Assembly (NCBI RefSeq): GCF_900218065.1
Contig: NZ_OBMU01000003.1
Coordinates: 62,001 to 126,000 of the forward strand
DNA: 64,000 bases
Direction of reading: 5' to 3'
From: Novosphingobium sp. Chol11
GTDB taxonomy: Bacteria; Pseudomonadota; Alphaproteobacteria; Sphingomonadales; Sphingomonadaceae
Part shown: one piece after another, positions 29,611 to 52,827 of the stretch
Position numbering within the stretch: position 1 is the first letter of the stretch
Layout: every line of letters starts with the position of its first letter
Notes under the pieces: generated by a model
What the model was told of the DNA's origin: nothing
Seen by the model: the letters and a program-made list of their open reading frames with translations, nothing else
The model's database searches: none
Position numbers and translations under genes: made by a program

Positions 29611-30027
29611 TCATGCATGTCCCATCATGGCGGATTCGGACATGAATTGGGCTAATGCTTCTACGCAGTCTTCGCGGGCGTGCGCCGCGTCGCTTAGCAG
29701 CTGTTCAATCCTCCGCTCACCCGATCGCGCGGGGGGCACATATGCAAGCGACCAGGTGACGAACCGGCGGCAGGGATATGCGCCCTCTGCGATGGTGCGG
29801 ATATCTTCGTGCCGAAGGTCATCGAGGATGATCCGCTGCAATGTGCCCACCGAAGTTGCGGGGCCTTCAAGATATTGCGCGAAATGGCGGCCGGTGAACA
29901 GCAGTGCGCCCGTGACCTGGAGCTTGCGATTGCGAGGTATCGAGTCCCTGACGATATCCGCCACCAGCTCATCGGACTCGTCCTCGGCAAGCCTGCTCGT
30001 GCTGATGTAGAACCATCGGAAAATCAT
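29611..30027 (-). CDS. BLUF-domain blue-light sensor protein
   Basis: This encodes 138 residues, a stand-alone BLUF domain of about 95 residues plus a short helical C-terminus. Key flavin-pocket residues are present: Tyr7 in RWFYIST, Asn33 in RNRKLQVTGALLF and Gln51 in HFAQYLEG, with Trp92 in RRFVTWSLAYVPP at the semi-conserved Trp position. The Asn-Gln spacing of 18 matches AppA and BlrB; Tyr-Asn is 26 rather than 24. Such short BLUF proteins signal by protein-protein contact after blue-light switching. No fused output domain is present. It diverges from the SIMPL lipoprotein gene. Confidence 0.9.
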   Translation of the reverse strand: MIFRWFYISTSRLAEDESDELVADIVRDSIPRNRKLQVTGALLFTGRHFAQYLEGPATSVGTLQRIILDDLRHEDIRTIAEGAYPCRRFVTWSLAYVPPARSGERRIEQLLSDAAHAREDCVEALAQFMSESAMMGHA

Positions 30028-32043: not shown

Positions 32044-33834
32044 TTAGGCTTCCGAATTCCTGGAAACTTCCAGTCCTTCGAGATCGCCCCTTTCGCGCCA
32101 TTTCTTCAGTTCTTCGAAATAGGCCAGGGTGCCCCCGGCATAGGGAGCGTTGCGGGCCATCTTGTGGTCGCCGAGCGATCCTTCGTTGTTGTAGAAGCCC
32201 GGGGTGCATTCGGAGGAGAACTTGCCGGTGCCCGTCAGATGCGACATCAGCACGCCAAGCCAGTGTTCCTGCGCCTGCTCGGTCGGTTCGAAGGCGCGGG
32301 CGTCCAGGTCGACCATGCGCTTGAGGGTGTAGGCGGTCTGTGTCGCGACATTATCGAGAATGGGAACGACGTTGACGCCGGTGCCGCCCTGGACCAGGCT
32401 GGACATCAACAGGTTGGGGAAGCCCTTCGTATACATGCCATGCAGGGTGGCGGCGCCGTCCTTCCACGCGTCGGTCAGCGACTGCCCGCCTTTGCCGTAC
32501 AGTTCAAAGCCCAGGCGGCGGGTATAGCCCGTCGAGACTTCGAAGCCCGATGCATAGACGAGGCAATCGACCGGATATTCGGTGCCGCCGACCACCACGC
32601 CGGTGGGGGTGATGCGCTCGACACCCTTGCCGTCGGTATCGACCAGAGTGACGTTGGGACGGTTGAAGCTTTGCAGATATTCGTCATGGAAGCAGGGACG
32701 CTTGCACATGGTGTTGTACCAGGGCTTCAATGCCTCTGCCGTGGCGGGATCCTGCACGATCTGATCGATGCGGGCGCCAATGCCCTCCATGCGGGCGAAG
32801 TCGGCCAGTTCATACTGATCGTCATCAGCCGCGCCGCCTTCGAAATTGACGCCGCCTGAAATCTGCGTCCAGCCATCGTTGATGAGGTCCTGCTCAACCG
32901 GCTGACCGGCGACCAGCGCCTCGAAATTCTCGATCCGCTCCTGCTGCCATCCTGGCTGGAGCGAAGCGGCCCATGCAGGATCGGTCGGCTGGTTGTTCCG
33001 CTCACCCACGCCGGACGGCGTGCGCTGGAAGACGTAGAGATGCTCCGCGTCGCGGGCGAGGTTGGGCACCGCCTGCACCGCGGTCGCGCCGGTGCCGATG
33101 ATGCCGATGCGCTTGTCCTTCAGGCGATCCATCGGCGTGGTCGGGCTGCCACCGGTATAGGCATAGTCCCAGCGGCTGGTGTGGAAGCTGTGCCCCTTGA
33201 AGTTTTCGATCCCCGGGATGCCGGGCAGTTTGGCCTTGTGCATGATCCCGCCGGCGATGACGAGGAAGCGTGCCGCCAGCACGTCGTCATGGTTGGTGCG
33301 CACCAGCCAGCGGGCGCGTCCCTCATCCCAGCGGACTTCCGTTACCTGCGTCTGGAACAATGCGCGGTCGTAAAGGTCGAAATGGCGGCCGAGCTGCTGG
33401 CAATAGCCGAAGATTTCCGCCGCCTTGGCGTATTTTTCCGTCGGGATGTAGCCGGTTTCCTCAAGCAGCGGCAGGTAGATATAGCTTTCAATGTCGCAAG
33501 CCGCGCCCGGATAGCGGTTCCAATACCAGGTGCCGCCGAAATCACCTGCCCGATCGATGATGCGGAAATCCTCGACGCCTTGCTGCCGCAGGCGCGCACC
33601 GGTGAGAAGCCCGCCGAAGCCGCCGCCGACGATTGCGACCTCTGTTTCTTCGACGATCGCCGGGCGCGTAAAGCCTGGTTCGACATAAGGGTCGGCGTCG
33701 AAGTCGCGGAAAACGGCGTTGGGATCAAGATACTGGTTCGGACCATCGGCCCGCAGGCGCCTGTCGCGTTCGATGCGGTATTTTTCTCTTAGCGCTTCAG
33801 GAGATATCCGGACCGCTGTTTTAACATCGCTCAT
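32044..33834 (-). CDS. Flavin-containing monooxygenase, Baeyer-Villiger type
   Basis: This encodes 596 residues. The FAD motif is [17 protein letters not shown], then [17 protein letters not shown], a stretch conserved in cyclohexanone- and phenylacetone-monooxygenase-like enzymes. The Baeyer-Villiger fingerprint [11 protein letters not shown] fits FxGxxxHxxxW, and a second Rossmann motif [15 protein letters not shown] binds NADPH. Such enzymes insert oxygen next to a ketone to form esters or lactones. GGAG precedes the ATG by 8 bases. It is the last gene of the minus-strand arm with two VOC proteins, a TonB receptor and two oxygenases. A cyclic or aromatic ketone substrate is likely. Confidence 0.93.
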
Positions 33835-33967: not shown

Positions 33968-34375
33968 TCATTTGCCGTGGTCAGGCGACAATTGCATGAC
34001 TTCGACTTTATGACCCTCGGGGTCGGCCACGATCGCATAGCGGAACTTATGCTCCTCGAGCGTCTCAGCCGCTCTGGCGATGCTGCCGCCCGCGGCCAGC
34101 GCTGCAGCCACGACGGCGTCCACATCGTCGACCATGAAGGCAATCGCTGCCTCTCCCGGCGTTGGCGTAGGCCTGTTCACATAATGCATCAAGGCGAGTT
34201 GCTGGTTGCTTTCTCCCCCTTCTGCTTTCAGGAAAATCTCTATGTGGGGCTCTTCGGTTTCGAGGCCGTCGAAGCGTCCCACTTCCTTCATTCCGAAAGC
34301 GTCGCTGTAGAAACGCACCAATGTCTCTGCATCGCCAACCATCAGTTTGAAATAATATAGGGAAATCTTGCTCAT
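33968..34375 (-). CDS. VOC-family protein (tandem copy 2)
   Basis: This encodes 135 residues, one glyoxalase-like unit: YYFKLMVGDAETLVRFYSDA, then PHIEIFLKAE, AIAFMVDDVDAVV and DPEGHKVEVMQL. His in EEPHIEIF and Glu in KVEVM could bind a metal, but the first-strand His common in metal-binding VOC enzymes is Lys or Tyr here, so it may bind ligand without a metal. It is clearly a paralogue of the next gene upstream (34423-34809); even the leaders resemble each other. It may isomerise or bind a pathway intermediate. Confidence 0.85.
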   Translation of the reverse strand: MSKISLYYFKLMVGDAETLVRFYSDAFGMKEVGRFDGLETEEPHIEIFLKAEGGESNQQLALMHYVNRPTPTPGEAAIAFMVDDVDAVVAAALAAGGSIARAAETLEEHKFRYAIVADPEGHKVEVMQLSPDHGK

Positions 34376-34422: not shown

Positions 34423-34809
34423 TCAAAGGCCGAATTGCATGACCTCGATGGCGTGACCTTCAGGATCGGTAATCGTCGCCCAGCGGAAATTATATGCCTC
34501 CAGCGTTTCGGCCGGTAGGATTATGCCGCCGCCTCTGGCTTGCGAAGCCGCCACGACTTCGTCCACATTTCCAACCGTGAAGGCGACCCTGACTTCGCCA
34601 GGCTGGGGCGTGGGCTTGTTGAAATATTGCATCAGGCACAATTGTTCGGTCTCTCCTGCCGACAGATATATCTCCAGGTGAGGGCGTACATGTTCGGGTT
34701 CGTGAATACGCCGGATTTCCTTCATTCCGAAGACCTCACGATAGAATGGCGCCAAAGCCTCCGCATCGTCGACCATCAACTTGACGTAATAAAGGGAAGT
34801 ATTGCTCAT
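34423..34809 (-). CDS. VOC-family protein (tandem copy 1)
   Basis: This encodes 128 residues with the same layout as the adjacent copy: SLYYVKLMVDDAEALAPFYR, FGMKEIRRI, PHLEIYLSAG, VRVAFTVGNVDEVV and DPEGHAIEVMQF. Roughly half the residues match by eye, with blocks such as YYxKLMV, FGMKE and DPEGHxxEVMQ identical. It ends 47 bases before the second copy starts and has AGAGGTAAATC as ribosome-binding site. The pair probably arose by local duplication and may form a heterodimer. The function is unknown. Confidence 0.85.
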   Translation of the reverse strand: MSNTSLYYVKLMVDDAEALAPFYREVFGMKEIRRIHEPEHVRPHLEIYLSAGETEQLCLMQYFNKPTPQPGEVRVAFTVGNVDEVVAASQARGGGIILPAETLEAYNFRWATITDPEGHAIEVMQFGL

Positions 34810-34877: not shown

Positions 34878-37385
34878 CTAAAAGGAGTAGCGTGCACGAA
34901 CGCCGTACATGCGCGGCTCGCCATATAGGGTGGCAGAATAGAGAACCGAATTGAACACATTGCTGTTGGACACCCGGTACAGTTTGTTGGTGATGTTGGT
35001 GCCGTAAAGGCCGAGATCCAAATTGCTTCCGCCGATTTTCTTCCAATCGATCGACAGGTTGAGCGTGCCAAACGCCTCCAGCTTTTCGCCAGGCTCGTTC
35101 GGCGGGACTATGGTGCCCGACGTGTGCTGCGAAGATGTATGTGAGTAGATCGCGAAGAACGAGATCGTGCCGAGATCGCCGCCAAGCGATTGTTCAGCCG
35201 AGGCATGAATGCTGTAGATGTAGGGAGAGACATATTGGAACGGCAGACAGGTCAAGTTTGCGGTGCCAGGCGCGGTGACGAAGTTGCCCGAGCAGTCCTG
35301 TACCAGCACGCTCGGTTGATATTCGTACCGCTTATATTTGGCGTCGGTGTAGCTGAATGTGCCGCCGATCTCCACGCCGGGGAATGGCCGTAGCGAAGCT
35401 TCCGCCTCTACGCCCTGGATGCGGGCATCAGCCTTCAGAACCTGAGCGCCCGCAGCCTGCGTGCCAGGATTGAAATCACCGGCCGCCCGCTGGATATCCT
35501 TGTACGTCAGGTAATAATAGGTGGCGTTCAAACGGAGCGGCATGCCGGCAATACGGACGTCCGACTTGAAGCCGCCTTCATAAGAAGTGACATATTCGGG
35601 CGGGAATGTACGGGTGTTCGCAAAGACGGCGTTGGCGTTGATGCCACCGGCCTTGTAGCCGCGACTGACCTTTCCATACAGCAGCAGGGCAGGAGATACC
35701 CTATAGTCTAGGCCGATATTCCACGTTGGCGCATTGGTCTTCAGATTAGCCGAAAACTGACAGTCGGAAGGCGTGGTGGCTGGGATCGTGGGATCGGTAT
35801 AGCAGGCGACAAAGCCCGGGCCCGCCTGATACAAATTCGCCGTGCCGCTCACCTTGTCCCAGGTATGGCGATACCCGCCCGTGAGCTTCAAATTTGCGAG
35901 CGCGGGGGTAAGCAGGCCAAGGTCCAGAGTGGCTTGCGCATAGAGCGCCTTCGACCTGTTGGTGATTGAATATCTGATGTCATATCCCGGGCAGAAACCG
36001 GTGAAGGCGGCAGGGCAAAAGCCGACAGATCCGGCGCCCTGATTTGCCACCGGACGCTGGTCATAGAGAAATGCGCCGGTGGTGAATGTCAGAAGATTGT
36101 CGAGCAGATTGCCCTGCAGTTGCAGTTCCTCGGTGAAAACTTTCAAGTCGTCCCTTGGGAGATCGGTCAATGTCGCATTCAGGTAGGTAAGCGGCGTTCC
36201 ATCGCCCGGCAAAACTGCCTGTCCCGGCGCAGGATAGCGCCGTGGGTCATTATCTTCCTGTTGGAAGACGCTGCCGTCGCTATCGATGCTATAGGATGAG
36301 GTGAAGCGCTGGTAGCTTACGATATTGCGGAGGGTCAGTTCGTCGTTCAATGCGAGCGAGGAGGTGTTGGTAATGCCCCAGGTCTTTGTTTTTTGATAGG
36401 AGTCGGTGCCATGAGCCGTCTGCCGCGGGCCGCGGGCTTCTGAATCGGCGACAGCCGCCCGGTACACATCGCATGACGCGATCACGCCGGGGATGGTCGG
36501 GCCTTCCTGACAAAAGCCGAGCGTGGGGTCTGACAACGCAGCGATGTTAAACCCAGTGTTGACCGTGCCGGTGCCATTGTTCCTGGAATTGGCTCCATAC
36601 GCCATGGTGTAGTTTTCAAACCCCTCGAAGGGCTTGAGCGTCAGGCCGATGCGTCCAGAATACCAGTGGGTGTTGTCGCGATCCTTGTCCCAGACCACAT
36701 CATAGGTGTAGCCGTCACGGTCATGATAGGCACCTGCAACGCGCAGGAGAACCTTGTCATCGACGATCGGCACGTTGATCGCGCCTTCCAACTGCTTATT
36801 GTCGTAGTTGCCGAACTTGGCCTGCGCATAGCCTTCAAATCTGTTCGTCGGTTTGTGCGGGACGAGGAGAACGGCGCCGCCAGTGGTGTTGCGGCCGAAG
36901 AGCGTGCCCTGCGGCCCATTCAGAACCTGCACATTCTCCAGATCAACGAAGTTCCCGGCGCCGCCCTGCTGCGGGGTTGAAATCGACGCGGGCAGCGGGA
37001 CTTCGTTGAGGTACACCACTACACCAGGAGACGCCTGGAAGGTCGCGCCCTGGCCGCGGATCGTGAAGCTCTGCGCTTCACGCGAAGGATTTCCGTTATT
37101 GCCCACGACCAGGGAGGGAACGGTCGCTTGCAGGTTTTGCGCCTCCGTAACGCCTTGCTGCTGTAGACGCTCAGGAGAAAAGGCCGTGATCGCAATAGGC
37201 ACGTCTTGCGCGCGCTCATCACGGCGTTGGGCGGTCACGACGATATCGTTCGAAGGAAAACTGTTAGGATCGGGCTCCGCAACGGCTTGATCTTGACCCT
37301 GGGCCTGCACATTCTGGGGAATGGCGACAGGCAAAAGAGTAACTGAACATAATAAGGCGATGCGGATTCTAGTATATCCAACCAT
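34878..37385 (-). CDS. TonB-dependent outer-membrane receptor
   Basis: This encodes 835 residues. The signal peptide (IALLCSVTLLPVAIPQNVQA) is followed by a TonB box (DIVVTAQRRDERAQDVP), the plug (SFTIRGQGATFQASPGVVVY; VQVLNGPQGTLFGRN, TTGGAVLLV) and a long barrel ending in GVRARYSF with a terminal Phe. Several Cys pairs occur in extracellular-loop regions (for example CQEGPTIPGVIASCDVY; FVTAPGTANLTCLPF), which may form disulfides. GGGAGG precedes the ATG. It lies between two oxygenase genes and the VOC genes and probably brings their substrate across the outer membrane. By eye its base composition is somewhat less GC-rich than its neighbours. Confidence 0.93.
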   Translation of the reverse strand: MVGYTRIRIALLCSVTLLPVAIPQNVQAQGQDQAVAEPDPNSFPSNDIVVTAQRRDERAQDVPIAITAFSPERLQQQGVTEAQNLQATVPSLVVGNNGNPSREAQSFTIRGQGATFQASPGVVVYLNEVPLPASISTPQQGGAGNFVDLENVQVLNGPQGTLFGRNTTGGAVLLVPHKPTNRFEGYAQAKFGNYDNKQLEGAINVPIVDDKVLLRVAGAYHDRDGYTYDVVWDKDRDNTHWYSGRIGLTLKPFEGFENYTMAYGANSRNNGTGTVNTGFNIAALSDPTLGFCQEGPTIPGVIASCDVYRAAVADSEARGPRQTAHGTDSYQKTKTWGITNTSSLALNDELTLRNIVSYQRFTSSYSIDSDGSVFQQEDNDPRRYPAPGQAVLPGDGTPLTYLNATLTDLPRDDLKVFTEELQLQGNLLDNLLTFTTGAFLYDQRPVANQGAGSVGFCPAAFTGFCPGYDIRYSITNRSKALYAQATLDLGLLTPALANLKLTGGYRHTWDKVSGTANLYQAGPGFVACYTDPTIPATTPSDCQFSANLKTNAPTWNIGLDYRVSPALLLYGKVSRGYKAGGINANAVFANTRTFPPEYVTSYEGGFKSDVRIAGMPLRLNATYYYLTYKDIQRAAGDFNPGTQAAGAQVLKADARIQGVEAEASLRPFPGVEIGGTFSYTDAKYKRYEYQPSVLVQDCSGNFVTAPGTANLTCLPFQYVSPYIYSIHASAEQSLGGDLGTISFFAIYSHTSSQHTSGTIVPPNEPGEKLEAFGTLNLSIDWKKIGGSNLDLGLYGTNITNKLYRVSNSNVFNSVLYSATLYGEPRMYGVRARYSF

Positions 37386-37468: not shown

Positions 37469-38515
37469 TCATTCTGCCGCCAGATCGTATATTGCGGGCA
37501 TGATCGTAGGCGAGCCTGGCTCGAACACGCTGGTGAGCAACTGGATGAACTCGGGGTCGTGGAGCGGATCACTCGGCGTTTTGAAAGCTATGCCCCGCGC
37601 GCGCAGTTCCGACAGGAAGATATCGAAAACCTGCTCATGGGATAGGTCGTCACTATGATCCAGCGCGACCGTCATTTCATCCAAGTCCATGTACATGTCG
37701 GCGCCCCAATGGAATAGCAGGCGGATTTCGTCGGCGGGCAACTGCTGAATGACGTTGCCATCCGTCTTGATTTGCCAGCCGTCTGAATCGGGGTCGGCTG
37801 CGATCACCGAGTTGATCGCCAAGCCTTCGGGCTTGCGCATTTCAGCCGGGCCACATGCATTGGCGCCGTGATACATGACCTCATTTTCCACGACGGCAGC
37901 GCGGCCCCACATCGGCGCATAAAGCTGTTTGGGCTGCCCCTCGGGGCCGTCAGGCCAATAGGTGAATCCGCCGCCGATCTGCCCCTTATAGTACCAGGTC
38001 AGAACCTGCGCTTTCTTGACCTGCCAAGGGCGAAACAGCCCGCATTTGGTCATAAGCCCGATAAGCCAGCCGGGTGTGTTCTGAATGGTCACGCCCCGAT
38101 AGTCGGCGCCATCGACATGAGGCGCCCCGCCCGCACCGGCGGGCCCCTGAATATTGCAGAGCATGAGGTTTGGCGCTGCATATTTGGCGCCCCAATAACC
38201 TTGGGCCAGATCAAGAAACTTGCTGTTGTAGAAGCAATCCTCGACCTCTGGGTAAAGGCTTGCATAGCCGCGGCCGAGCGTTGACCGAAAGACCGGGCTG
38301 AGAAACATGTCCCACGTCGGTACGAATCCTTCAGGAAGTGAGCCGGATGTTGCGCCGATTACCTCTTCAGGCGAACTGAATTCCTGGGACAGGATCGTCG
38401 TCCAGGGGCCCTTATTGCGCAAGACAGAGAAAAGCCGCTGCCGCTGATCTTCGCTGAACGCGTTCTCTATAAGCTGAGGCTCAGCGATCGGTCGCAGGAA
38501 AGAATGCGTGTTCAT
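37469..38515 (-). CDS. Candidate non-haem iron/2-oxoglutarate-type oxygenase, divergent
   Basis: This encodes about 348 residues and I do not recognise a named subfamily. An HxD pair, His133 and Asp135 in GGAPHVDGADYRG, and a distal His216 in ENEVMYHGANACG have the spacing of an Fe(II) facial triad on a double-stranded beta-helix. A basic residue for 2-oxoglutarate is less obvious (Arg227 in AEMRKPEG is one candidate). It lies directly downstream of a clear PhyH-type oxygenase. AAGGAG precedes the ATG at 38515; an ATG at 38584 overlapping the previous stop would add 23 residues and is a coupled alternative. The substrate is unknown. Confidence 0.65.
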   Translation of the reverse strand: MNTHSFLRPIAEPQLIENAFSEDQRQRLFSVLRNKGPWTTILSQEFSSPEEVIGATSGSLPEGFVPTWDMFLSPVFRSTLGRGYASLYPEVEDCFYNSKFLDLAQGYWGAKYAAPNLMLCNIQGPAGAGGAPHVDGADYRGVTIQNTPGWLIGLMTKCGLFRPWQVKKAQVLTWYYKGQIGGGFTYWPDGPEGQPKQLYAPMWGRAAVVENEVMYHGANACGPAEMRKPEGLAINSVIAADPDSDGWQIKTDGNVIQQLPADEIRLLFHWGADMYMDLDEMTVALDHSDDLSHEQVFDIFLSELRARGIAFKTPSDPLHDPEFIQLLTSVFEPGSPTIMPAIYDLAAE

Positions 38516-38583
38516 GATTTCTCCTTTTGCTGCCGGAACAGCCAATTGTTTTTTGTGTTCTCGCTGTGAGAGAAAGATATCCA

Positions 38584-39384
38584 TCAGCTTTCCCTAAGTG
38601 CTTTCAATGGATCGGCCTGTGCTCCGGCATGGCCGTATCCATATTTGGGACCGACCTGATATCCCATGAGTTTGAGCAGATCGTCAGGCAAGGTCCGCGC
38701 GATTTCCGGGGGGCAGGCGATATATTGATTTTCACCTTGTCGTAGCCATCCCAGGGAATAGTTTATCGCCTGCGCGATACGCACATCATTTGACCGGTTG
38801 TTGCCGCCGGCATGCCAAAGCTTGCCTGAGAAGATCAGCACTGATCCCCGCTTCATTTCTGTCGGCAGCGTGTCTTCCATTTTGTAATGGGCAGGCGGAC
38901 GAGCATGGCTTCCGGGGACGATGCGTGTGGCACCATTCTCTTCAGTGTAGTCGGTGACAGCCCATAGAGTATTGCAACAAGCGATACAGTCGTCCGGGAA
39001 TATGAAGTCATCGTAGAGAAGTTCATCTGTATGGATGACTTGCGCCGGAGCACCCGGGTTGAGCGAGATCATCTCGGTCGTGCAAATCTGGAACGTCGAT
39101 GCGCAGCTGAGAATGTTCTTGACCACGCCTAAGACCAGTGGGTTCATCGCCAGATCGCGTCCGGCCGGCGATCGGGCGATCAGCTTGCCCACCCGTTGCG
39201 CATAGTCCCCGCCCCACTCTGCGTCGGTCAGCTGAGCCTGCGGATTGAATGGCTGCATGTCCGATCGGACCTGATCCATCACCGACTCAGGAACCAGGCA
39301 ATCGATAATGACATGACCATGTTCCTGCATTACTGCAGTGGCTTCTTCGATCGTTGCCGTATTTGGCAGATGCTGCACGCTCAT
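38584..39384 (-). CDS. Phytanoyl-CoA dioxygenase (PhyH) family oxygenase
   Basis: This encodes 266 residues of an Fe(II)/2-oxoglutarate-dependent hydroxylase. The facial triad is His118 and Asp120 in AQVIHTDELLYDD and His191 in SGKLWHAGGNN, with Arg202 in NDVRIAQAINYS as 2-oxoglutarate binder. ENGATRIVPGSHARPP is the conserved PhyH segment before the distal His. Family members hydroxylate unactivated carbons, often next to a carboxyl, CoA or amino group. GAAGGAGC lies 8 bases before the ATG. It is followed without a gap by the divergent oxygenase and preceded by the aminotransferase gene on the same strand. Confidence 0.9.
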   Translation of the reverse strand: MSVQHLPNTATIEEATAVMQEHGHVIIDCLVPESVMDQVRSDMQPFNPQAQLTDAEWGGDYAQRVGKLIARSPAGRDLAMNPLVLGVVKNILSCASTFQICTTEMISLNPGAPAQVIHTDELLYDDFIFPDDCIACCNTLWAVTDYTEENGATRIVPGSHARPPAHYKMEDTLPTEMKRGSVLIFSGKLWHAGGNNRSNDVRIAQAINYSLGWLRQGENQYIACPPEIARTLPDDLLKLMGYQVGPKYGYGHAGAQADPLKALRES

Positions 39385-39470: not shown

Positions 39471-40790
39471 TCACCTCGTTTTTCTAAGTATGTCGAAGAG
39501 TGTTTGCGTGATGCGATCGATCTGGTCTCGATCGATGATGAGTGGTGGGGAGAGTGCGATGGTGTCACCATTGGCGCGGACTAGAAGCCCCTTTTCAAAG
39601 CAGTCCACAAATACATCAAAGCCGCGTGATCCGGGGTCATCGGGTCGGGGCGAAAGTTCGATCGCGGCGATCAGGCCCATGGCCCGGATATCGGCAATGT
39701 GCGGCGCATTCTGCAATGAGAGCAAATTGCGCTGCCAATGCTCCTCAAGTTCCGCAGCGCGCATGAAGAGGCCTTCGCGCTGATAAATGTCGAGGCTGGC
39801 AAGACCAGCTGCACATGCGGCGGGGTGGCCGGAATAGGTGTAGCCGTGGAATAGCTCGATCGCGGCCTCGGGCCCCTGCATGAGGGCGTCGTGGACGTGG
39901 CGGGATGTGAACACCGCACCCATCGGCATGGCGCCGTTAGTCAGCCCCTTCGCCGTCGTCATGATGTCCGGCGCGACATCGAAATGCTGGGCTGCAAAGG
40001 GGCTGCCCAGGCGGCCGAAACCGGTGATGACCTCATCGAAGATCAGGAGGATGCCGTGCCGCGTCGCGATCTCGCGTAGCCGCTTCAGATACCCCTGCGG
40101 AGGCAGCAACACCCCTGTCGAGCCAGCAACCGGTTCGACGATAACCGCAGCGATCGTTTCCGCGCCATGGAGTTGGACGAGCCGCTCCAGATCGTCGGCC
40201 AGTTCGGCGCCATGTTCGGGAGGGCCCTTGCAGAAAAGGTTGCGGCTCGGATCATGTGTGTGCCGCATGTGATCAACGCCATGCAGGGTGGAGAAGGCGC
40301 GTCGATTATTGACCAGCCCCCCTACCGAAATGCCGCCAAAACCGACCCCATGATAGCCACGCTCACGCCCAACCAGCCGAGTGCGTGTGCCTTGACCAAT
40401 CGCGCGCTGATAGGCGAGAGCGATCTTGAGCGCCGTGTCCACGGATTCTGAGCCGGATCCGGTGAAGAATATCCGGTCGAGACCCGGGGGCGCTATTTCG
40501 GCCAGGCGTTCTGCAAAGCGGAAGGCAAGGGGATGGCCTAGTTGAAAGCTTGGTGCGTAGTCCAAGCCCTCCAACTGGGCGGCGACCGCTGAAGCAATCT
40601 CCTTCCGACCATGGCCGGCGTTGACGCACCACAGGCCCGCTGACCCATCGAGTATGTCGCGTCCGTCATCGCTGCGGTAATACATGCCGGATGCTTCGAC
40701 CAGCATTCGCGGCGCCGCCTTGAACTTCCGATTAGGCGTGAAGGGCATCCAATAGGCATCGAGTGCTACGCTGTTGGTCAAAGTCTTCAT
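39471..40790 (-). CDS. Class III (omega) aminotransferase
   Basis: This encodes about 439 residues of a PLP enzyme. YWMPFTPNRKFKAAPRM at the start, FFTGSGSESVDTALKIA, YHGVGFGGISVGG, LLIFDEVITGFGRLG (Asp binds the PLP ring nitrogen) and TTAKGLTNGAMPMGAV (Lys forms the Schiff base) match beta-alanine/omega-amino acid:pyruvate transaminases. The enzyme moves a terminal or side-chain amino group to pyruvate. The ATG at 40790 is preferred by family alignment; an upstream in-frame start adds 18 residues. It is transcribed away from the XRE-cupin regulator, with a 20-bp palindrome between them, and heads the minus-strand arm that includes both oxygenases and the TonB receptor. Confidence 0.9.
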   Translation of the reverse strand: MKTLTNSVALDAYWMPFTPNRKFKAAPRMLVEASGMYYRSDDGRDILDGSAGLWCVNAGHGRKEIASAVAAQLEGLDYAPSFQLGHPLAFRFAERLAEIAPPGLDRIFFTGSGSESVDTALKIALAYQRAIGQGTRTRLVGRERGYHGVGFGGISVGGLVNNRRAFSTLHGVDHMRHTHDPSRNLFCKGPPEHGAELADDLERLVQLHGAETIAAVIVEPVAGSTGVLLPPQGYLKRLREIATRHGILLIFDEVITGFGRLGSPFAAQHFDVAPDIMTTAKGLTNGAMPMGAVFTSRHVHDALMQGPEAAIELFHGYTYSGHPAACAAGLASLDIYQREGLFMRAAELEEHWQRNLLSLQNAPHIADIRAMGLIAAIELSPRPDDPGSRGFDVFVDCFEKGLLVRANGDTIALSPPLIIDRDQIDRITQTLFDILRKTR

Positions 40791-40890
40791 TTGATCATCC
40801 GTCAATTTGTTGACATGTTGATCGTTTATCCAGGCATGCCGCAAGGCGTTTTCAGCTTTTAAGAAGATCCTTGATTTTCAATAGGATGCT

Positions 40891-40940: not shown

Positions 40941-41492
40941 GTGTCGGAAGTGGAGATCGGATCGCGCCTGCGCCGTGCGCGTGAAAAGGCGGGAATATCT
41001 CAACGCACGCTGGCCAAACGTGCTGGGATCACCAATTCTACCATCTCGCTGATGGAATCGAACGGCACCAATCCGTCGATCGGAGCCTTGAAGCGCGTGC
41101 TCGATGCCATGTCCGTCAGTTTGTCCGATTTTTTCGCGATGGACGAACCGGACCGCCCTCAGTCTTTCTACAAGGCTTCCGAACTCACGGAAATTGGCAA
41201 GGGGTCCGTGTCCTTGCGCCAGGTGGGATCCAACCTGGCTGGGCGGCAACTGCAGATCCTGTCGGAGACGTGGCAGCCGGGCGCGGACACGGGGAAGATC
41301 AGCCTTACTCATGAAGGCGAGGAGGGCGGGGTGGTGATATCAGGCTTCATTGAAATCACCGTCGATGACGAACGATGCATCCTTGGACCTGGCGACGCTT
41401 ACAACTTCGACAGCAGGCGGCCACATCGCTTCCGCTGCGTCGGGGATGAACCGGCCCGCTGCATTAGTGCGTGCACTCCTCCCACCGTCTAG
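40941..41492 (+). CDS. XRE-family regulator with C-terminal cupin (PuuR-like)
   Basis: This encodes 183 residues. The N-terminal helix-turn-helix (about 5-60) reads SRLRRAREKAGISQRTLAKR, then AGITNSTISLMESNGTNPSI. The C-terminal cupin (about 105-180) includes THEGEEGGVVISGFIEITVD and LGPGDAYNFDSRRPHRFRC. PuuR-type proteins repress amine or amino-acid catabolic genes and respond to a small ligand in the cupin. Initiation is at GTG with GGGAG 10 bases upstream. Divergence from an aminotransferase gene suits this role. Confidence 0.92.
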   Translation: MSEVEIGSRLRRAREKAGISQRTLAKRAGITNSTISLMESNGTNPSIGALKRVLDAMSVSLSDFFAMDEPDRPQSFYKASELTEIGKGSVSLRQVGSNLAGRQLQILSETWQPGADTGKISLTHEGEEGGVVISGFIEITVDDERCILGPGDAYNFDSRRPHRFRCVGDEPARCISACTPPTV

Positions 41493-41587: not shown

Positions 41588-42769
41588 ATGATTGGGATGG
41601 AAATGGGCGCGCCCGAACAAGAAGAGACGTTTTCAGACATCCGCGAAGGCATCCGCCGGCTTTGTGCGCGGTTTCCCGGGGCCTATTGGCAGGAGTTGGA
41701 TGCTGAGCGGCGCTATCCCACCGAGTTCGTGACGGCGCTGGCCAGCGAGGGTTGGCTTTCAGTGCTGATCCCGGAGGAGTTTGGCGGCTCGGGTCTTGGG
41801 CTGGCTGCTGCAACGGCGGTGCTGGAGGAAGTGCACCGTTCGGGATGCAATGGCGGTGCGGCCCATGCGCAGATGTACACCATGGGCACTGTCCTGCGGC
41901 ATGGGTCGGAGGAGCAGAAGGCACGCTATTTGCCGAAGATCGCGTCGGGTGAGCTTCGCCTCCAGGCGTTCGGGGTCACCGAACCGACAAGCGGCACTGA
42001 CACGACCCGTATAAGGACCTTCGCCAAGCGGGATGGCGACGACTATGTCGTCAATGGCCAGAAGATCTGGATCAGCCGCGCTGAACATTCCGACCTGATG
42101 GTCCTGCTGGTGCGCACCACGCCGCGTGAGGAATGCGCCAAGCCTACCGACGGCATCAGTGTCTTGCTGGTCGATATGCGTGAAGCGGTGGGCAACGGCC
42201 TTACCATTCGGCCGATTCGTACGATGCTGAACCATGCGACGACGGAACTGTTCTTCGACGATTTGCGCGTGCCAGCGGCGAACCTGATCGGGGAGGAAGG
42301 CAAGGGCTTCCGCTACATCCTGTCCGGCATGAACGCCGAACGCATTCTGATCGCGTCGGAATGTATTGGCGACGCGCGCTTCTTCATTGATCGCGCGAGC
42401 GCCTATGCGAAGGACAGGTCCGTCTTCGGCCGTCCGATCGGGCAGAACCAGGGTGTACAATTCCCCATCGCGCGCGCCTATGTGCAGACGACCGCCGCCG
42501 CTGCCATGGTGGATCGGGCCGCGGCGCTGTTCGACGCGGGGGTGCAGCCGGGCACCGAAGCGAACATGGCCAAGATGCTGGCGTCCGAGGCGTCCTGGTA
42601 TGCTGCCGACATGTGTGTCCAGACCCATGGCGGCTTCGGCTTTGCGGAAGAATATGACATCGAGCGCAAGTTCCGCGAAACGCGCCTTTACCAGGTCGCG
42701 CCGATTTCGACCAACCTGATCCTCAGCCATGTGGCGACGCATGTGCTGGGCCTGCCGAAGAGCTTCTGA
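41588..42769 (+). CDS. Acyl-CoA dehydrogenase
   Basis: This encodes 393 residues. FAD-binding and fold motifs are clear: LQAFGVTEPTSGTDTTRIRT, VNGQKIWISRAEHSDLMVLL, FGRPIGQNQGVQFPIA and QTHGGFGFAEEYDIER. At the C-terminal position where medium- and short-chain enzymes carry the catalytic Glu, the sequence is LYQVAPIST with no Glu. The Glu in MNAERILIASE matches the alternative base position of isovaleryl- and long-chain-type enzymes. A branched or bulky acyl-CoA is therefore likely. Several ATGs lie within the first six codons. The stop overlaps the CoA-transferase start (TGATG). Confidence 0.92.
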   Translation: MIGMEMGAPEQEETFSDIREGIRRLCARFPGAYWQELDAERRYPTEFVTALASEGWLSVLIPEEFGGSGLGLAAATAVLEEVHRSGCNGGAAHAQMYTMGTVLRHGSEEQKARYLPKIASGELRLQAFGVTEPTSGTDTTRIRTFAKRDGDDYVVNGQKIWISRAEHSDLMVLLVRTTPREECAKPTDGISVLLVDMREAVGNGLTIRPIRTMLNHATTELFFDDLRVPAANLIGEEGKGFRYILSGMNAERILIASECIGDARFFIDRASAYAKDRSVFGRPIGQNQGVQFPIARAYVQTTAAAAMVDRAAALFDAGVQPGTEANMAKMLASEASWYAADMCVQTHGGFGFAEEYDIERKFRETRLYQVAPISTNLILSHVATHVLGLPKSF

Positions 42770-43890
42770 TGGGAAAAGTGCTGGAAGGCTTGCTGGTCGT
42801 CTCGCTGGAACAGGCGGTGGCTGCGCCGCTCTGCACCAGCCGCCTTGCAGAAGCGGGGGCGCGGGTCATCAAGCTTGAGCGGGCGGAGGGAGACTTTGCG
42901 CGTGGTTATGACTCCGTCGTCCATGGCGAGAGCGCCTATTTCGTCTGGCTGAACCGCGGCAAGCAGTCGCTGCGCATTGATCTGAAGGATACCGCCGACG
43001 CGGCGCTGATGGAACGGATGCTGTCCAAGGCAGACGTGTTCGTCCAGAATCTCGCCCCGGGCGCGGCGGCGCGATCGGGTTTCGGATCGGCTGATCTGCG
43101 CGCCCGCTATCCCCGCCTCATCACCTGCGACATCACCGGCTATGGCGAGAGCGGCGATGCGGCGGGGATGAAGGCCTATGACTTCCTGATCCAGTGCGAA
43201 GCCGGGCTTGCCAGCATCACCGGCACGGTGGATGATCCTGCGCGGGTCGGGGTTTCGGTGGCCGACATCGCCTGCGGGATGAATGCGCATGCTGCGATCC
43301 TTCAGGCGCTGATCGAGCGGGGACAGACCGGCAAGGGGCGCGGCATCGCGGTGTCGCTGTTCGATGGGTTGGCCGATTGGATGACGGTGCCGCTGCTACA
43401 TTATGATTATGGCGGCAAGGCGCCGTCGCGCGCTGGGCTGAAGCATCCTTCGATCGCGCCCTATGGCGCCTTTGCGACTGCGGACGGATCGCAGATCGTG
43501 GTGTCGATCCAGAATGAGCGGGAATGGGCGAAGTTCTGCGCCACGGTGCTGGGCGATGCAGGCCTAGCGACGGACCCGCGCTATGCGTCGAACACGCTGC
43601 GTAGTGCCAATCGTCCCGAACTGGACGCGATGGTCGGCCGTGTTTTTGCAGCCGAAATGCCTGACGCACTGATCGCCCGGCTGGAAGCGGCTGGCACGGC
43701 TTGGGCACGATTGAACGGTGTCGATGGTTTGTCGCGGCACAGCCAGCTTCGCCGCGTCACGGCGGAAACTCCAACCGGCCCTGTCGCCTTGCCAGCCTCG
43801 CCCGTGAGATGGGATGGGGAGGAGGCGGTTGCGCTGCCGGTTCCGGCTTTGGGGGGCGATGATGAGGCGATCCGGGCGGAGTTTCTGTGA
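42769..43890 (+). CDS. CaiB/BaiF family (class III) CoA-transferase
   Basis: This encodes 373 residues. LVVSLEQAVAAPLCTSRLAE at the N-terminus, LNRGKQSLRIDLKD and the catalytic Asp138 in KAYDFLIQCEAGLASITG match formyl-CoA-transferase-like enzymes, which form an aspartyl-CoA thioester. The protein would move CoA to a carboxylic acid, activating the substrate for the dehydrogenase. It is coupled at both ends: 1 base shared with the acyl-CoA dehydrogenase stop and a GTGA overlap with the MaoC-like gene. The acyl donor is unknown. Confidence 0.92.
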   Translation: MGKVLEGLLVVSLEQAVAAPLCTSRLAEAGARVIKLERAEGDFARGYDSVVHGESAYFVWLNRGKQSLRIDLKDTADAALMERMLSKADVFVQNLAPGAAARSGFGSADLRARYPRLITCDITGYGESGDAAGMKAYDFLIQCEAGLASITGTVDDPARVGVSVADIACGMNAHAAILQALIERGQTGKGRGIAVSLFDGLADWMTVPLLHYDYGGKAPSRAGLKHPSIAPYGAFATADGSQIVVSIQNEREWAKFCATVLGDAGLATDPRYASNTLRSANRPELDAMVGRVFAAEMPDALIARLEAAGTAWARLNGVDGLSRHSQLRRVTAETPTGPVALPASPVRWDGEEAVALPVPALGGDDEAIRAEFL

Positions 43891-44687
43891 GCCGAGCGAT
43901 CGAACATCGCACCGATATCGCTGCCGCCCGGCAAGCGCATTTGCTTGCGGCGCTGCTTGATCATGACACGCCGCCGTGGCCGGCGGGAGAGTTGCCGCCG
44001 CTTGCGCACTGGTTGTTGTTTCCGCCGGACGCGCGGCAATCATGCATTGGACCCGACGGTCACCCGATGCGGGAGGATGATGGCCTGCCGCGCCGCATGT
44101 GGGCAGGCAGCCGCGTGCGTTTCCTCGCCCCGATCCTGCTTGGCAGCGAGGTAGAGCGGGAAACGAGTGCGATCGCGATCAACGACAAAGAGGGGCGATC
44201 CGGGCGGATGCGCTTCGTCACCTTGCGTCACCTGTTGAAGGTGGACGGCCAGGTCTGTGTTGAGGAAGAGCAGGACATCGTCTATCGCGAAGCTGGGCGG
44301 AACGGGGCTCCTCCGCCGCCCGAAGAAGTGACGCCTGCGCCGCCTGTTGCGCGCGTGGTGACGATCGATCCGGTGCAGCTTTTCCGCTTCTCTGCTCTCA
44401 CCTTCAACGCGCACCGCATCCATTATGATTTGCCCTACACGCAGGATGTCGAAGGCTATCCCGGGCTGGTCGTCCATGGCCCCTTCATCGCGACATTGCT
44501 GATGGATCATTTCCTGCGCCATGCTCCAGCCGCGCAGGTCTCAAGCTTCTCCTTCCGCGCGCAGCGGCCGATTTTTGCGGGAGAGCCGTTTACTTTGGGC
44601 CTGTCACCGGAGGGAATGGGTGGCGACTTGATGGCGATTGATCACGCGGGCGGCCTGGCGATGCGGGCGCGTGTGGAAACTCGCTAG
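43887..44687 (+). CDS. MaoC/HTD2-like hydratase (FAS1-like dehydratase family)
   Basis: This encodes 266 residues in a double hot-dog layout. The N-terminal half (SRVRFLAPILLGSEVERETS) resembles FAS1-like dehydratase domains. The C-terminal half has the hydratase-type motif FSALTFNAHRIHYDLPYTQD, then YPGLVVHGPFIATLL. Relatives are mesaconyl-C4-CoA, itaconyl-CoA and hydroxyacyl-thioester dehydratases. It should add water to the enoyl-CoA made by the neighbouring dehydrogenase. The start is GTG, overlapping the previous stop by 4 bases. Confidence 0.85.
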   Translation: MSRAIEHRTDIAAARQAHLLAALLDHDTPPWPAGELPPLAHWLLFPPDARQSCIGPDGHPMREDDGLPRRMWAGSRVRFLAPILLGSEVERETSAIAINDKEGRSGRMRFVTLRHLLKVDGQVCVEEEQDIVYREAGRNGAPPPPEEVTPAPPVARVVTIDPVQLFRFSALTFNAHRIHYDLPYTQDVEGYPGLVVHGPFIATLLMDHFLRHAPAAQVSSFSFRAQRPIFAGEPFTLGLSPEGMGGDLMAIDHAGGLAMRARVETR

Positions 44688-44752
44688 TCCAGTCCTGTTC
44701 ATTGGTAGATTCGCCAGATCGCTAAGTCGCCTTAGGCTGTAGAGCTGAGAGG

Positions 44753-46120
44753 CTATGACGCCAGGCACGTCAGCTTTTTGACCTCCGGCAGTGAGGCAAG
44801 GTCAAGTGCAGCCGTGGCAAGCGCGTCCGCCTTGGCCGCTCCCAGCACTGGAGCGGCAAGCGCCATAAACTTGGCCAACAGCTTATCTGTTCCGAGGAAG
44901 TTGGAGGGTTCGCCCAGCGGCACGACCACTTTGCGGCTGAATGTCCGACCGCGCGCCGCGATGGTGATTTTTCCCGACATGTTGGTCGGGAACTCCGCCT
45001 CGATCTCCGGATCGTGGATGCAATCGACCTTGGGCAGCATTGTGCGGATGACAGGGTCGTTCAACCGCTGATAGCTGTCCCATTCCATCGCGCCTGTGAC
45101 CAGCGCGCAGGAGAGGACGAACGGCGCGCTGAACTGCGCGTCCACGATGTTGCGTGGATTGCGTTTATGCTCGATCGGCGCGCCGACCAGCAGCAGGCCA
45201 GCGTTGGACAGGCCATAGGTGATGCTGTCCACCTGCTCCGGCGACAGTCCATGCTCAGCCCGCAGCGCCAGCACCGCGTCTATACCGGCATGGCCGTATC
45301 GGCAGGATGGATAGGGTTTGATGCCGGTATGCATCAGTTCGTAAACGGAGCCGAGATCCTGCACGACCCGCTCTGGCCGTGGCGCTGGCGCGTAGCCCTG
45401 AAGGAAGCCATGGCGTCCCTCGATCGCTTCAGCCGGACCCTTGTAGCCATTGCGCGCCAATGTCGCAGCGGTAAGGCCAGCCATCGCTGCCCAGCCGACT
45501 TGAAACGGCTTCGTCTGCGCGCCATCGGCCAGGAACTGGAGGCTTCCCGCGCTCTGGCTCAACGCAATGCCCAGCGCGGAGCTGATCCCTGCGGCATCAA
45601 GGCCGAATATCCGCGCCGCCGCAGCAGCAGCGCCGAACACGCCGCAGGTCGCGCTGGGATGAAAGCCCCGCGCATAATGATCGCCCGCTGGCAGTGCCAC
45701 AGCGATCCGGCAGCAAGTCTCATAGCCAGCGACGATGGCGGCTAGAATGTCCGCGCCGGATGCTCCCACAATCTCCGCTGCGGCAAGTGCGGCCGGGATG
45801 ACCGGCGCGCCGGGATGCAATGTCCCGGCGGCATGGGTGTCGTCAAAGTCGAGCGCATGCGCCAGCGCCCCATTGAGCAGCGCCGCACCCGCCGGGGCAT
45901 AGCCTGCCGGGTCGCCGAACACGCGGGCTGCACCATTGCCCATGCCCATCGCGGCTACGGTGGCGAGCAGGGGCGGAGAGACCGCCGCCTCGCTGCGCGC
46001 TCGCACGATGCTGCCGATAAGGTCGAGCAGGAGAAGGGGCGTGCGCTCGACCACTTCTGAGGGCAGGGACGCTATCGAGACGTTGGCACAGAAATCCGAC
46101 AAGGCTTCCGTGATTTTCAT
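44753..46120 (-). CDS. MmgE/PrpD family protein
   Basis: This encodes 455 residues. LLDLIGSIVRARSEA, ALDFDDTHAAGTLHPGAPVI, YARGFHPSATCGVFGAAAAA and HTGIKPYPSCRYGHAGIDAV are typical of the 2-methylcitrate-dehydratase/aconitate-decarboxylase superfamily. These act on tricarboxylates or related hydroxy-acids and need no iron-sulfur cluster. It lies 4 bases after the aldehyde dehydrogenase gene in the same operon. In catabolic clusters such members often have substrates other than methylcitrate, so the exact reaction is open. Confidence 0.9.
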   Translation of the reverse strand: MKITEALSDFCANVSIASLPSEVVERTPLLLLDLIGSIVRARSEAAVSPPLLATVAAMGMGNGAARVFGDPAGYAPAGAALLNGALAHALDFDDTHAAGTLHPGAPVIPAALAAAEIVGASGADILAAIVAGYETCCRIAVALPAGDHYARGFHPSATCGVFGAAAAAARIFGLDAAGISSALGIALSQSAGSLQFLADGAQTKPFQVGWAAMAGLTAATLARNGYKGPAEAIEGRHGFLQGYAPAPRPERVVQDLGSVYELMHTGIKPYPSCRYGHAGIDAVLALRAEHGLSPEQVDSITYGLSNAGLLLVGAPIEHKRNPRNIVDAQFSAPFVLSCALVTGAMEWDSYQRLNDPVIRTMLPKVDCIHDPEIEAEFPTNMSGKITIAARGRTFSRKVVVPLGEPSNFLGTDKLLAKFMALAAPVLGAAKADALATAALDLASLPEVKKLTCLAS

Positions 46121-46124
46121 GATC

Positions 46125-47615
46125 TCACCGGATCACGAATGGATTTGATACCGGAGATCCGAGGTCGATCCATACGCTTTTGGTCTGGAGATACTCGTCC
46201 ATCGCCTCTTGCCCGTTTTCGCGTCCGATGCCGCTGCGCTTCATGCCGCCGAACGGGGCCATGAAACTGACGGCGCGATAGGTGTTGACCCAGACCGTGC
46301 CCGCTTCGACGCGTTCCGACATGCGAATGGCGCGGCCGATATTCTGCGTCCATACGCCCGCAGCGAGGCCATAGGGGCTGTCATTGGCGATCGACAGCGC
46401 CTCTTCCTCATCATCGAACGGGATGATGGCAAGCACCGGCCCGAACACTTCCTCGCGCGCGATCGGCATCTGGTTGTTGACGCCGGTGAAGATGGTGGGC
46501 TGCACGAACCAGCCGTCCTCCAATCCGGCAATCGTAGGCAGGCCGCCGCCCAGCACGCATTCTGCGCCCGATTGACGAGCGCCCGCGATATGATCGATTA
46601 TCTTGCCGCGCTGCGCCAGCGTCGTCACCGGCCCGACCTGCGTGTCGGCCAGCTTCGGATCGCCGATGCGAGCGGTGCCCGCCAGGGCGACCAGACGCTC
46701 CACCACCTCGTCATGGACGTTGCGCTGTACCAGCAGGCGCGATCCCGCGATGCAGGTCTGGCCCGATGCCGCGAAGATGCCCGACACCGCGCCATAAACC
46801 GCGCGCTCCAGGTCGGCATCGTTAAAGATGATGTTGGGCGACTTGCCGCCCAACTCCAGCGTGACCTTCTTCAGATTTTCGGCAGCGGAGCGATAGACGG
46901 CGATGCCGCCGGGTTCGCCCCCGGTAAAGGCGACCTTGGCAATGTCAGGATGTTTGACCAGCGGCTCGCCACATTCCTGTGGCAGGCCGGTGACGGTATT
47001 GACGACGCCCGCCGGGAAGCCTGCGCGTTCGAACAGTTCGACAAAGGCGAGGGTCGAGCAGGATGCATGTTCCGACGGCTTGATGACCGCCGTGTTGCCC
47101 GCCGCCAGCAATGGCGCCAGCTTCCACGCCAGCAGCATGAGCGGCGAGTTCCATGGCGTGATGCAGGCGATCACCCCCAGCGGCTCGCGGCGGGTGAAGG
47201 CATGCATTGACGGCTTGTCGATTGGGAGGACCTGCCCCTCGATCTTGTCGGCCAGACCCGCAAAGTAGCGATAATAGGTAGGGAGATTGCCAAGCTGCGC
47301 CCGCATTTCCGCGATCAGCTTGCCATTGTCCTGCGTTTCGAGTTGCGCGAGGCGTTCCGCTTCTTCCGCGAGGATGTCGGCAAAGCGGTAGAGCAGGGCG
47401 CCGCGCGCGGTTGCTGTCAGGCCACGCCACTCGGGTGAGCGGAAGGCGGTGCGCGCCGCCTCCACCGCTGCATCGACATCGGCAGAAGTGCAGCGCGGGA
47501 TGAGAGCCCAGGGCTTGCCGGTCGCGGGGTCAAGGCTCTCCAGCCATTCGCCGCCGTCCGCCTCACGCGCACTCCCCGCCAGCAGATTGCGGAACCGGAC
47601 CAGATCCTCAGCCAT
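46125..47615 (-). CDS. NAD(P)-dependent aldehyde dehydrogenase
   Basis: This encodes about 496 residues, a complete ALDH-superfamily protein. Catalytic residues are in place: Asn156 in TPWNSPLML, Lys179 in VIKPSEHAS, Glu254 in VTLELGGKSP and the nucleophile Cys288 in ASGQTCIAGSR. EEVFGPVLAIIPFDDEEEAL and the C-terminal NTYRAVSFMAPFGGMKRSG match. GGGGAGAG precedes the ATG at 47615; a TTG one codon earlier is less likely. It follows the ThDP decarboxylase beta gene by 25 bases and should oxidise the aldehyde that enzyme releases. Confidence 0.95.
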   Translation of the reverse strand: MAEDLVRFRNLLAGSAREADGGEWLESLDPATGKPWALIPRCTSADVDAAVEAARTAFRSPEWRGLTATARGALLYRFADILAEEAERLAQLETQDNGKLIAEMRAQLGNLPTYYRYFAGLADKIEGQVLPIDKPSMHAFTRREPLGVIACITPWNSPLMLLAWKLAPLLAAGNTAVIKPSEHASCSTLAFVELFERAGFPAGVVNTVTGLPQECGEPLVKHPDIAKVAFTGGEPGGIAVYRSAAENLKKVTLELGGKSPNIIFNDADLERAVYGAVSGIFAASGQTCIAGSRLLVQRNVHDEVVERLVALAGTARIGDPKLADTQVGPVTTLAQRGKIIDHIAGARQSGAECVLGGGLPTIAGLEDGWFVQPTIFTGVNNQMPIAREEVFGPVLAIIPFDDEEEALSIANDSPYGLAAGVWTQNIGRAIRMSERVEAGTVWVNTYRAVSFMAPFGGMKRSGIGRENGQEAMDEYLQTKSVWIDLGSPVSNPFVIR

Positions 47616-47640
47616 CAAACTCTCCCCTCGACCTGCTGCT

Positions 47641-48231
47641 TCAATTCGGCCCGAAGCCCAGATGTTCGCGCATGCGTGCCTTCAGCCATACACCATCGCG
47701 GGCGGGCAGGGCACGCGGCGTTTCCTCGTGCACGATGCGGATGACGATCAGGCGCGGACCTTCACCGATCGTGCCGATCGCTTCGCGCGCCCGAGCGATG
47801 CCCGCCTCATCGGTGACTTCGAAACATTCCGTGAAACCGCACACTCGCGCCATCTCGGCCAGGTTGATCCCTGCGCCCGCGTGGCTCATCTGTCCGCCGG
47901 TTTCGCCATAATGGCCATTGTCGAGAACAACGATCGAGAGGTTGTTCGGCCGCTGAACGCCGATCGTTGCAAGGCCGCCAATGCCCATCAGCTGCTCTCC
48001 ATCGCCGGTCACGACCGTCACAGGACGCTCCGGCTGCGCCAGCGCGAGGCCGAGCCCGGTCAAAGCCGCGCCGCCCATGGCTCCCCACAGGTAGAAGTTG
48101 CCGGGATGGTCGCCCGCCGCGAAGACATCATAGGTGGGGGAACCAAGGCCAGTGACGATCAGCATATCCTTGCGATCGGCGAGCAGGTCCGCCACGGCCT
48201 GGCGGCGGTGGAGACGGTTCACTTCAGCCAT
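47641..48231 (-). CDS. ThDP-dependent 2-oxoacid decarboxylase, beta (ThDP-binding) subunit
   Basis: This encodes 196 residues corresponding to the C-terminal third of ThDP decarboxylases. The ThDP/Mg motif runs from VVTGDGEQLMGIGGLATIG to VVLDNGHYGETGG. It resembles the beta chain of sulfopyruvate and phosphonopyruvate decarboxylases (ComE-like). The start overlaps the alpha-subunit stop by 13 bases, so the two chains are made in step. It would decarboxylate a 2-oxoacid to an aldehyde. The substrate is not determined. Confidence 0.88.
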   Translation of the reverse strand: MAEVNRLHRRQAVADLLADRKDMLIVTGLGSPTYDVFAAGDHPGNFYLWGAMGGAALTGLGLALAQPERPVTVVTGDGEQLMGIGGLATIGVQRPNNLSIVVLDNGHYGETGGQMSHAGAGINLAEMARVCGFTECFEVTDEAGIARAREAIGTIGEGPRLIVIRIVHEETPRALPARDGVWLKARMREHLGFGPN

Positions 48232-48770
48232 TTCTTCGCTCCCAGCATGCTTTGCGACAACAGGATAGCGATCGGCTGATCGCTTTCGAACGCCATGGTC
48301 GCGGCGGACGCCATCATCGGGGCGAGGTCTTCAAGCCGGTCGATGCGGATGGTGGTGACGCCCATGATCTCAAGCGCGGCGGGCGTTGCGCGGCCCATCG
48401 AGACTTGCCACGGGTTGAATTCCTGAAACTCGCCGCGCATCGTGACGATCGTCAGAAACGGAACGCGGCAGCTCGCCAGCAATGAGAGCATGTTGATGCA
48501 ATTGCCAACCCCGCTCGACTGCATGAGGAGGGCGCTCCGCTCCCCGCCCAGCCACGCGCCGGTGCAGAGCGCTATGCCCTCTTCCTCGGTGGTGAGGACA
48601 ATGCTCTTCATGTTCTCGGCGGCGCTGCACATGCGGATCAGCCGGGCATGGCCTGCGTCCGGAACATAGCTGACCTGCCGTACATTCGCCTGCTGCAAGG
48701 CGTCGAAGATTATAGGTGCCCAGGGGGAGTCGGCGTGCGCCCCTGTTTCCGTCTCGCTAATGGCTGACAT
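48219..48770 (-). CDS. ThDP-dependent 2-oxoacid decarboxylase, alpha subunit
   Basis: This encodes 183 residues corresponding to the N-terminal PYR domain. SYVPDAGHARLIRM and the segment LTTEEEGIALCTGAWLGGER carry the conserved Glu that activates ThDP, and MQSSGVGNCINMLSLL and FLTIVTMRGEFQEFNPWQ follow, as in ComD-like sulfopyruvate decarboxylase alpha chains. Active sites form at the interface with the beta chain. GAGGG precedes the ATG. It is the first gene of the minus-strand operon alpha-beta-ALDH-MmgE and diverges from a LysR regulator. Confidence 0.88.
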   Translation of the reverse strand: MSAISETETGAHADSPWAPIIFDALQQANVRQVSYVPDAGHARLIRMCSAAENMKSIVLTTEEEGIALCTGAWLGGERSALLMQSSGVGNCINMLSLLASCRVPFLTIVTMRGEFQEFNPWQVSMGRATPAALEIMGVTTIRIDRLEDLAPMMASAATMAFESDQPIAILLSQSMLGAKKWLK

Positions 48771-48791
48771 GTGTCCCTCGAAGTGGATTTC

Positions 48792-48826
48792 GCAAAGCCT
48801 ATTGCGGGATTTGCTAAACCAATAGG
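48792..48826. promoter_or_regulatory. LysR-type operator region with two overlapping dyads
   Basis: CCTATTG (48798-48804) and CAATAGG (48820-48826) are perfect complements with a 15-base spacer. GCAAA (48792-48796) and TTTGC (48810-48814) form a second dyad overlapping the first. Both lie in the 89-base gap between the divergent decarboxylase and LysR genes, where LysR proteins usually bind recognition and activation sites. Confidence 0.5.
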
Positions 48827-48859
48827 AACAATATACGCGTCCAGCTATGTCGGTTGGGC

Positions 48860-49807: not shown

Positions 49808-49920
49808 TAATTAGGTCTCGCCGCTGTTCGGACATATCGATCCGGCATAGGTGGCGATAGCTGTTCTATGACTATGAGCGCAGTGCGGGGGCTATTTCAT
49901 CGCGATGCCGGAACGAGGAA

Positions 49921-52788: not shown

Positions 52789-52793
52789 AACGA

Positions 52794-52827
52794 GGGTGCC
52801 GGCGCATTTAAAAGCACCCGACCTTTT
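52794..52827 (+). terminator. Likely intrinsic terminator between convergent SDR genes
   Basis: GGGTGC (52794-52799) pairs with GCACCC (52814-52819) and TTTTT follows at 52823-52827. It lies 6 bases after the plus-strand SDR stop and overlaps the last codons of the minus-strand SDR (stop at 52808). The 14-base loop is large, so strength is uncertain. Confidence 0.5.

Follow-up and report, generated by a model that had tools for sequence, protein, structure and literature searches.

The window, a 64,000-nucleotide stretch of a Novosphingobium sp. Chol11 contig (NZ_OBMU01000003.1), carries on its minus strand a gene for a 348-residue protein that is the subject of this analysis and, together with its homologues, is referred to below as the family. 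The following genes surround it:

32044-33834, minus strand: Baeyer-Villiger-type flavin monooxygenase (BVMO; best model NF045818, PtlE, E 3e-218, below its cut-off)
33968-34375, minus strand: VOC/glyoxalase-fold protein (PF00903)
34423-34809, minus strand: VOC/glyoxalase-fold protein (PF00903)
34878-37385, minus strand: TonB-dependent receptor, probable uptake channel (PF00593, PF07715)
37469-38515, minus strand: family gene, predicted Fe(II)/2-oxoglutarate oxygenase of 348 residues (H133, D135 and H216, putative iron ligands; R265, candidate 2-oxoglutarate ligand)
38584-39384, minus strand: PhyH-type Fe(II)/2-oxoglutarate oxygenase (PF05721, 99.4 bits against a cut-off of 22, E 4.5e-28)
39471-40844, minus strand: class III aminotransferase, AptA type (NF052567, 718.5 bits against a cut-off of 500)
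40941-41492, plus strand: divergent HTH-cupin regulator, PuuR-like (below the PuuR cut-off)

This gene content agrees with the initial annotation. The 348-residue reading frame with His133, Asp135 and His216 was reproduced exactly at 37469-38515 (minus strand), and the TonB receptor, aminotransferase (class III), VOC proteins (two) and BVMO (a BVMO-like flavoprotein) described there are all present. The adjoining gene, located 68 bp upstream of the family gene, encodes a clear PhyH enzyme as claimed: the protein belongs to PF05721 (E 4.5e-28), carries the motif H118xD120...H191...R202 and has AusE/PrhA as PDB relatives (E down to 5e-23).

An alternative, longer reading frame of 371 amino acids would start at 38584, with an ATG that overlaps the PhyH stop codon. 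We prefer the 348-residue start because homologues begin at this methionine and an AAAGGAG site precedes it; the longer start is unconserved and was dropped. Promoter and terminator scans returned no more sites than shuffled sequences did.

Two further observations concern the surroundings. A short protein encoded between catabolic genes (29611-30027, minus strand) resembles, by eye, a BLUF blue-light sensor domain. On the other side, positions 41588-53000 hold genes for an acyl-CoA dehydrogenase, a CoA transferase, a PrpD-like protein, an aldehyde dehydrogenase, a split TPP-enzyme-like pair and an FMN alpha-hydroxyacid oxidase; this block looks like a separate catabolic module and has counterparts, ~87% identical in DNA sequence, on large plasmids from Sphingobium strains of tomato roots.

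Sequence conservation and predicted fold

The initial annotation had called the 348-residue protein unrecognised, and library searches bear this out. It matches no Pfam family up to E 1, is unmatched in NCBIfam and yields no accepted match among PDB sequences, either alone or through the family profile. Single-sequence PDB hits to SAKe kelch designs (best E 0.004) were rejected, as no stretch is significant alone and the family profile finds none of them. At the curated cut-offs, neither the window protein nor 58 relatives match PhyH (PF05721), and the window protein has no match to PF13640 (2OG-FeII_Oxy_3). A direct hhalign comparison of the family with the single neighbouring PhyH protein also found nothing, and our search of the open-access literature found no paper naming the family. 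Modelled by none of the libraries searched, the family appears from its sequences to be new, inside a known superfamily.

His133, Asp135 and His216 are invariant in alignments of 21, 58 and 15 sequences. A profile search reached alphaproteobacterial relatives (E 1e-28 to 1e-54) that keep both the triad and Arg265, including one with just 21% identity to the window protein (locus L157); two of these distant relatives match PF13640 weakly (E 0.005-0.008; 17.5-18.1 bits against a cut-off of 27). Because the triad is invariant in the 21 and 58 relatives as well as in distant ones, the HxD...H motif is, to judge from these alignments, more than a chance pattern. Arg265 is most likely the better candidate for the 2-oxoglutarate ligand, since it is invariant and sits on the last core strand of the structural model, whereas Arg227, the residue nearest the usual arginine position (~10 residues past the distal histidine), is replaced by glutamine in 20 of 58 sequences. 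The full HxD...H motif plus arginine across such divergent sequences would be unexpected without catalysis. We therefore regard it as very unlikely that the family consists of non-catalytic or 2-oxoglutarate-independent beta-helix proteins that bind a metal or ligand, even though small binding-type proteins (VOC, SnoaL, Dabb) occur in the same clusters.

In agreement with the fold that the initial annotation called for, the confident AlphaFold model of the 348-residue protein (pLDDT 91.2, pTM 0.89) predicts a double-stranded beta-helix. The 50 matches listed by each of Foldseek and VIA-align are all 2-oxoglutarate oxygenases or close family members. Unguided hhalign alignment to PF13640-type (prolyl-hydroxylase-type) proteins matches His133 and Asp135 to the HxD motif and His216 to the distal histidine, with E 3.4e-4 and a probability of 38%. 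Membership of the 348-residue protein in the Fe(II)/2-oxoglutarate oxygenase superfamily is thus well supported computationally.

The best VIA-align Z-scores belong to SnoN (12.6), PHD2 (12.4), OkaE (12.3) and AsqJ (12.1) and, being within 1 of each other, are ties. SnoN, an epimerase, and SnoK, a carbocyclase, are among the best structural matches, and the family could accordingly use the same fold, Fe(II) and 2-oxoglutarate for a desaturation, an epimerisation or a ring change as in these two enzymes. We consider this unlikely: the scores of SnoN and SnoK tie with those of hydroxylases such as PHD2, and the fold cannot separate the reactions.

Family copies, gene neighbourhoods and the PhyH gene

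The genome that contains the window holds 13 family copies with 38-100% identity, among which one paralogue forms a pair with the window copy (81%). Because for most of the 13 copies the closest relative belongs to a different genome, they represent an old or horizontally spread set and not a local burst. The distribution of the family is patchy, with members in 3 of the order's 246 genomes and in 10 of 397 from the taxonomic family (the window's genome is included in both counts). A scan of species genomes gave 238 encoding stretches, from which 79 loci were kept; their hosts are sphingomonads, Haliea/Parahaliea, Azospirillum, Caulobacter, mycobacteria, Archangium and others. The family also occurs on plasmids, mainly of Sphingobium and Novosphingobium, where it is annotated as 'hypothetical protein'; two copies lie on pNL2 of Novosphingobium aromaticivorans DSM 12444.

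Within 5 kb of 111 family copies, we found genes for SDR proteins (82 copies), HSL esterases (45), BVMOs (43), KstD-type dehydrogenases (34), KshA (32), VOC proteins (29), TonB receptors (25) and PhyH (3), counts that refer to copies rather than independent events, as ~30 of them are related mycobacteria with one arrangement. Neighbouring genes were called with a codon score, excluding antisense reading frames. In the mycobacterial arrangement, a SnoaL-SDR-esterase-family gene series lies beside KshA, KstD and PadR; NCBIfam identifies the dehydrogenase, above its cut-off, as a 3-ketosteroid-delta-1-dehydrogenase, and the Rieske protein belongs to KshA_C. This conserved unit (L069-L113), which also holds acyl-CoA dehydrogenases and in which PadR is the regulator, has the appearance of an operon for steroid-type catabolism.

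Recurring arrangements in proteobacterial loci are the order BVMO-VOC-family gene and a family gene beside a TonB receptor. The window's genome contains seven BVMO genes, identified by genome-wide search, four of which have a family copy no more than 5 kb away, where 0.5 would be expected (P about 0.0003-0.0006, permutation within contigs). An earlier figure of 6/9 was discarded as biased, since two of the BVMO genes had come from the neighbourhoods themselves. On different contigs of this genome, two BVMO genes with the same N-terminal sequence lie near different family copies (L021, L024), suggestive of a duplication or transfer in the recent past.

Among the 111 copies, the association with PhyH is confined to a single genome. 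PhyH genes occur within 5 kb of only 3/111 family copies, all three in the window's genome, and searching all the neighbourhoods with greater sensitivity found PhyH at these three loci only. In Sphingobium RC1 and TomTYG64, plasmids carry cassettes that contain, in order, an aminotransferase, the family gene, a TonB receptor, two VOC genes, an MFS gene, a BVMO and PrpD, and both lack PhyH. The RC1 proteins are closely similar to those of the window (aminotransferase 93% identical, family protein 91%, TonB receptor 87%, BVMO 87.5%). Because the DNA similarity between the window and the related cassette (83%) breaks off at the PhyH gene and resumes past it, PhyH was apparently gained in the window cassette or lost in those of RC1 and TomTYG64. 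Its closest plasmid relative (68%) resides on another TomTYG64 replicon, beside a gene for a large protein and oxidoreductases. PhyH is thus an optional extra oxygenase of the window cassette, and the 3/111 count and the two PhyH-free cassettes rule it out as a constant partner. Transposase genes were observed at the flanks of the RC1 and TomTYG64 cassettes (L017, L124); because they flank both, we suggest that the segment from aminotransferase to PrpD is transferred as one piece among Sphingobium replicons.

These neighbourhoods argue against two parts of the initial annotation, namely that the family protein and PhyH are coupled as a system and that their substrate is an amine or amino acid. 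A tandem of the two oxygenases, with the aminotransferase removing the amino group, would fit the adjacent, co-directional aminotransferase, PhyH and family genes, the retention of a 93% identical aminotransferase in the RC1 and TomTYG64 cassettes and the presence of a family copy within 5 kb of 3/6 PhyH genes in the window's genome. However, neither related cassette has PhyH, which is also missing from the surroundings of every copy examined outside the window's genome, and the aminotransferase was seen only beside the window copy and its 91% relatives. The wider context is not that of amine metabolism: the family travels with SDR, BVMO, VOC, TonB, esterase, KshA and KstD genes. A tandem acting on an amine or amino acid is thus improbable, while an amine-bearing substrate is possible for the window cassette in particular, given its aminotransferase.

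Proposed role and comparison with known systems

The reading that we judge probable is that the family comprises unmodelled Fe(II)/2-oxoglutarate hydroxylases acting in the catabolism of steroid- or terpenoid-like ketones. In its favour are the invariant triad and Arg265, the confident model, the hhalign mapping of the ligands and the SDR/BVMO/TonB/VOC/HSL esterase/KshA/KstD context. Against it stand the hhalign probability of only 38%, the ~10% identity to solved enzymes and the glutamine in place of Arg227 in 20/58 sequences. Moreover, the context is an association, many copies have no BVMO nearby, and steroid-type genes are clearest in mycobacteria, which form a separate clade of the family.

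For the family protein, we infer the use of 2-oxoglutarate, the hydroxylation, the substrate class and the order of steps as follows. A bulky hydrophobic ketone would enter through the adjacent TonB receptor. His133, Asp135 and His216 would hold iron on the double-stranded beta-helix, with Arg265 on the last core strand holding 2-oxoglutarate, and the enzyme would hydroxylate a substrate carbon with O2 and 2-oxoglutarate. Dehydrogenases and the BVMO would take over the hydroxylated product, and hydrolysis of the ester or lactone made by the BVMO would follow.

More tentatively, the family may represent undescribed 2-oxoglutarate hydroxylases dedicated to ring or side-chain hydroxylation when proteobacteria and mycobacteria break down steroids or terpenoids aerobically (myxobacteria also have members), with diversification into a dozen substrate-specific copies within single genomes. 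Either way, catabolic clusters with KshA, KstD and BVMO genes contain an oxygenase family labelled only 'hypothetical protein'. If its members are hydroxylases, they would supply an unassigned step in the breakdown of steroid- or terpene-like compounds, serve as a marker for finding such pathways and offer new biocatalysts for the selective oxidation of steroids or terpenoids.

Among sphingomonads, a BVMO takes part in steroid breakdown in Caenibius tardaugens, which carries the progesterone cluster pdc; a BVMO there was shown experimentally to act on progesterone (PMC12239570), similar to the BVMO context of the family. By analogy, this enzyme makes a steroid context plausible, short of proof of the substrate. 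The main text of that study names no 2-oxoglutarate oxygenase, and the family gene lies outside the described cluster; N. arvoryzae and N. aromaticivorans, both named in the study, carry family copies (L046 and L018, respectively). The same study (PMC12239570) has a 'hypothetical protein' of C. tardaugens that progesterone induces and that sits next to a Dabb protein; no connection between it and the family could be established. A link to tomatine through Sphingobium RC1 was likewise set aside, as the main text of PMC10653915 does not name the RC1 cassette plasmid.

Within the superfamily, the family shares the fold and HxD...H logic of PhyH (PF05721), with no profile match between them. For the prolyl-hydroxylase type (PF13640), the triad falls on its ligands by profile alignment and distant relatives match it below the cut-off. 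The solved enzymes SnoN/SnoK, PHD2, OkaE, AsqJ and AlkB show the same double-stranded beta-helix over residues 8-291 of the 348-residue protein (VIA-align Z 11-12.6) and have the HxD...H triad in common with it, whereas their identity to it is ~10%, with no sequence-level match, and their gene neighbours differ from those of the family. In contrast to these enzymes, the 348-residue protein has ~48 residues between His216 and Arg265, with extra predicted strands in this segment.
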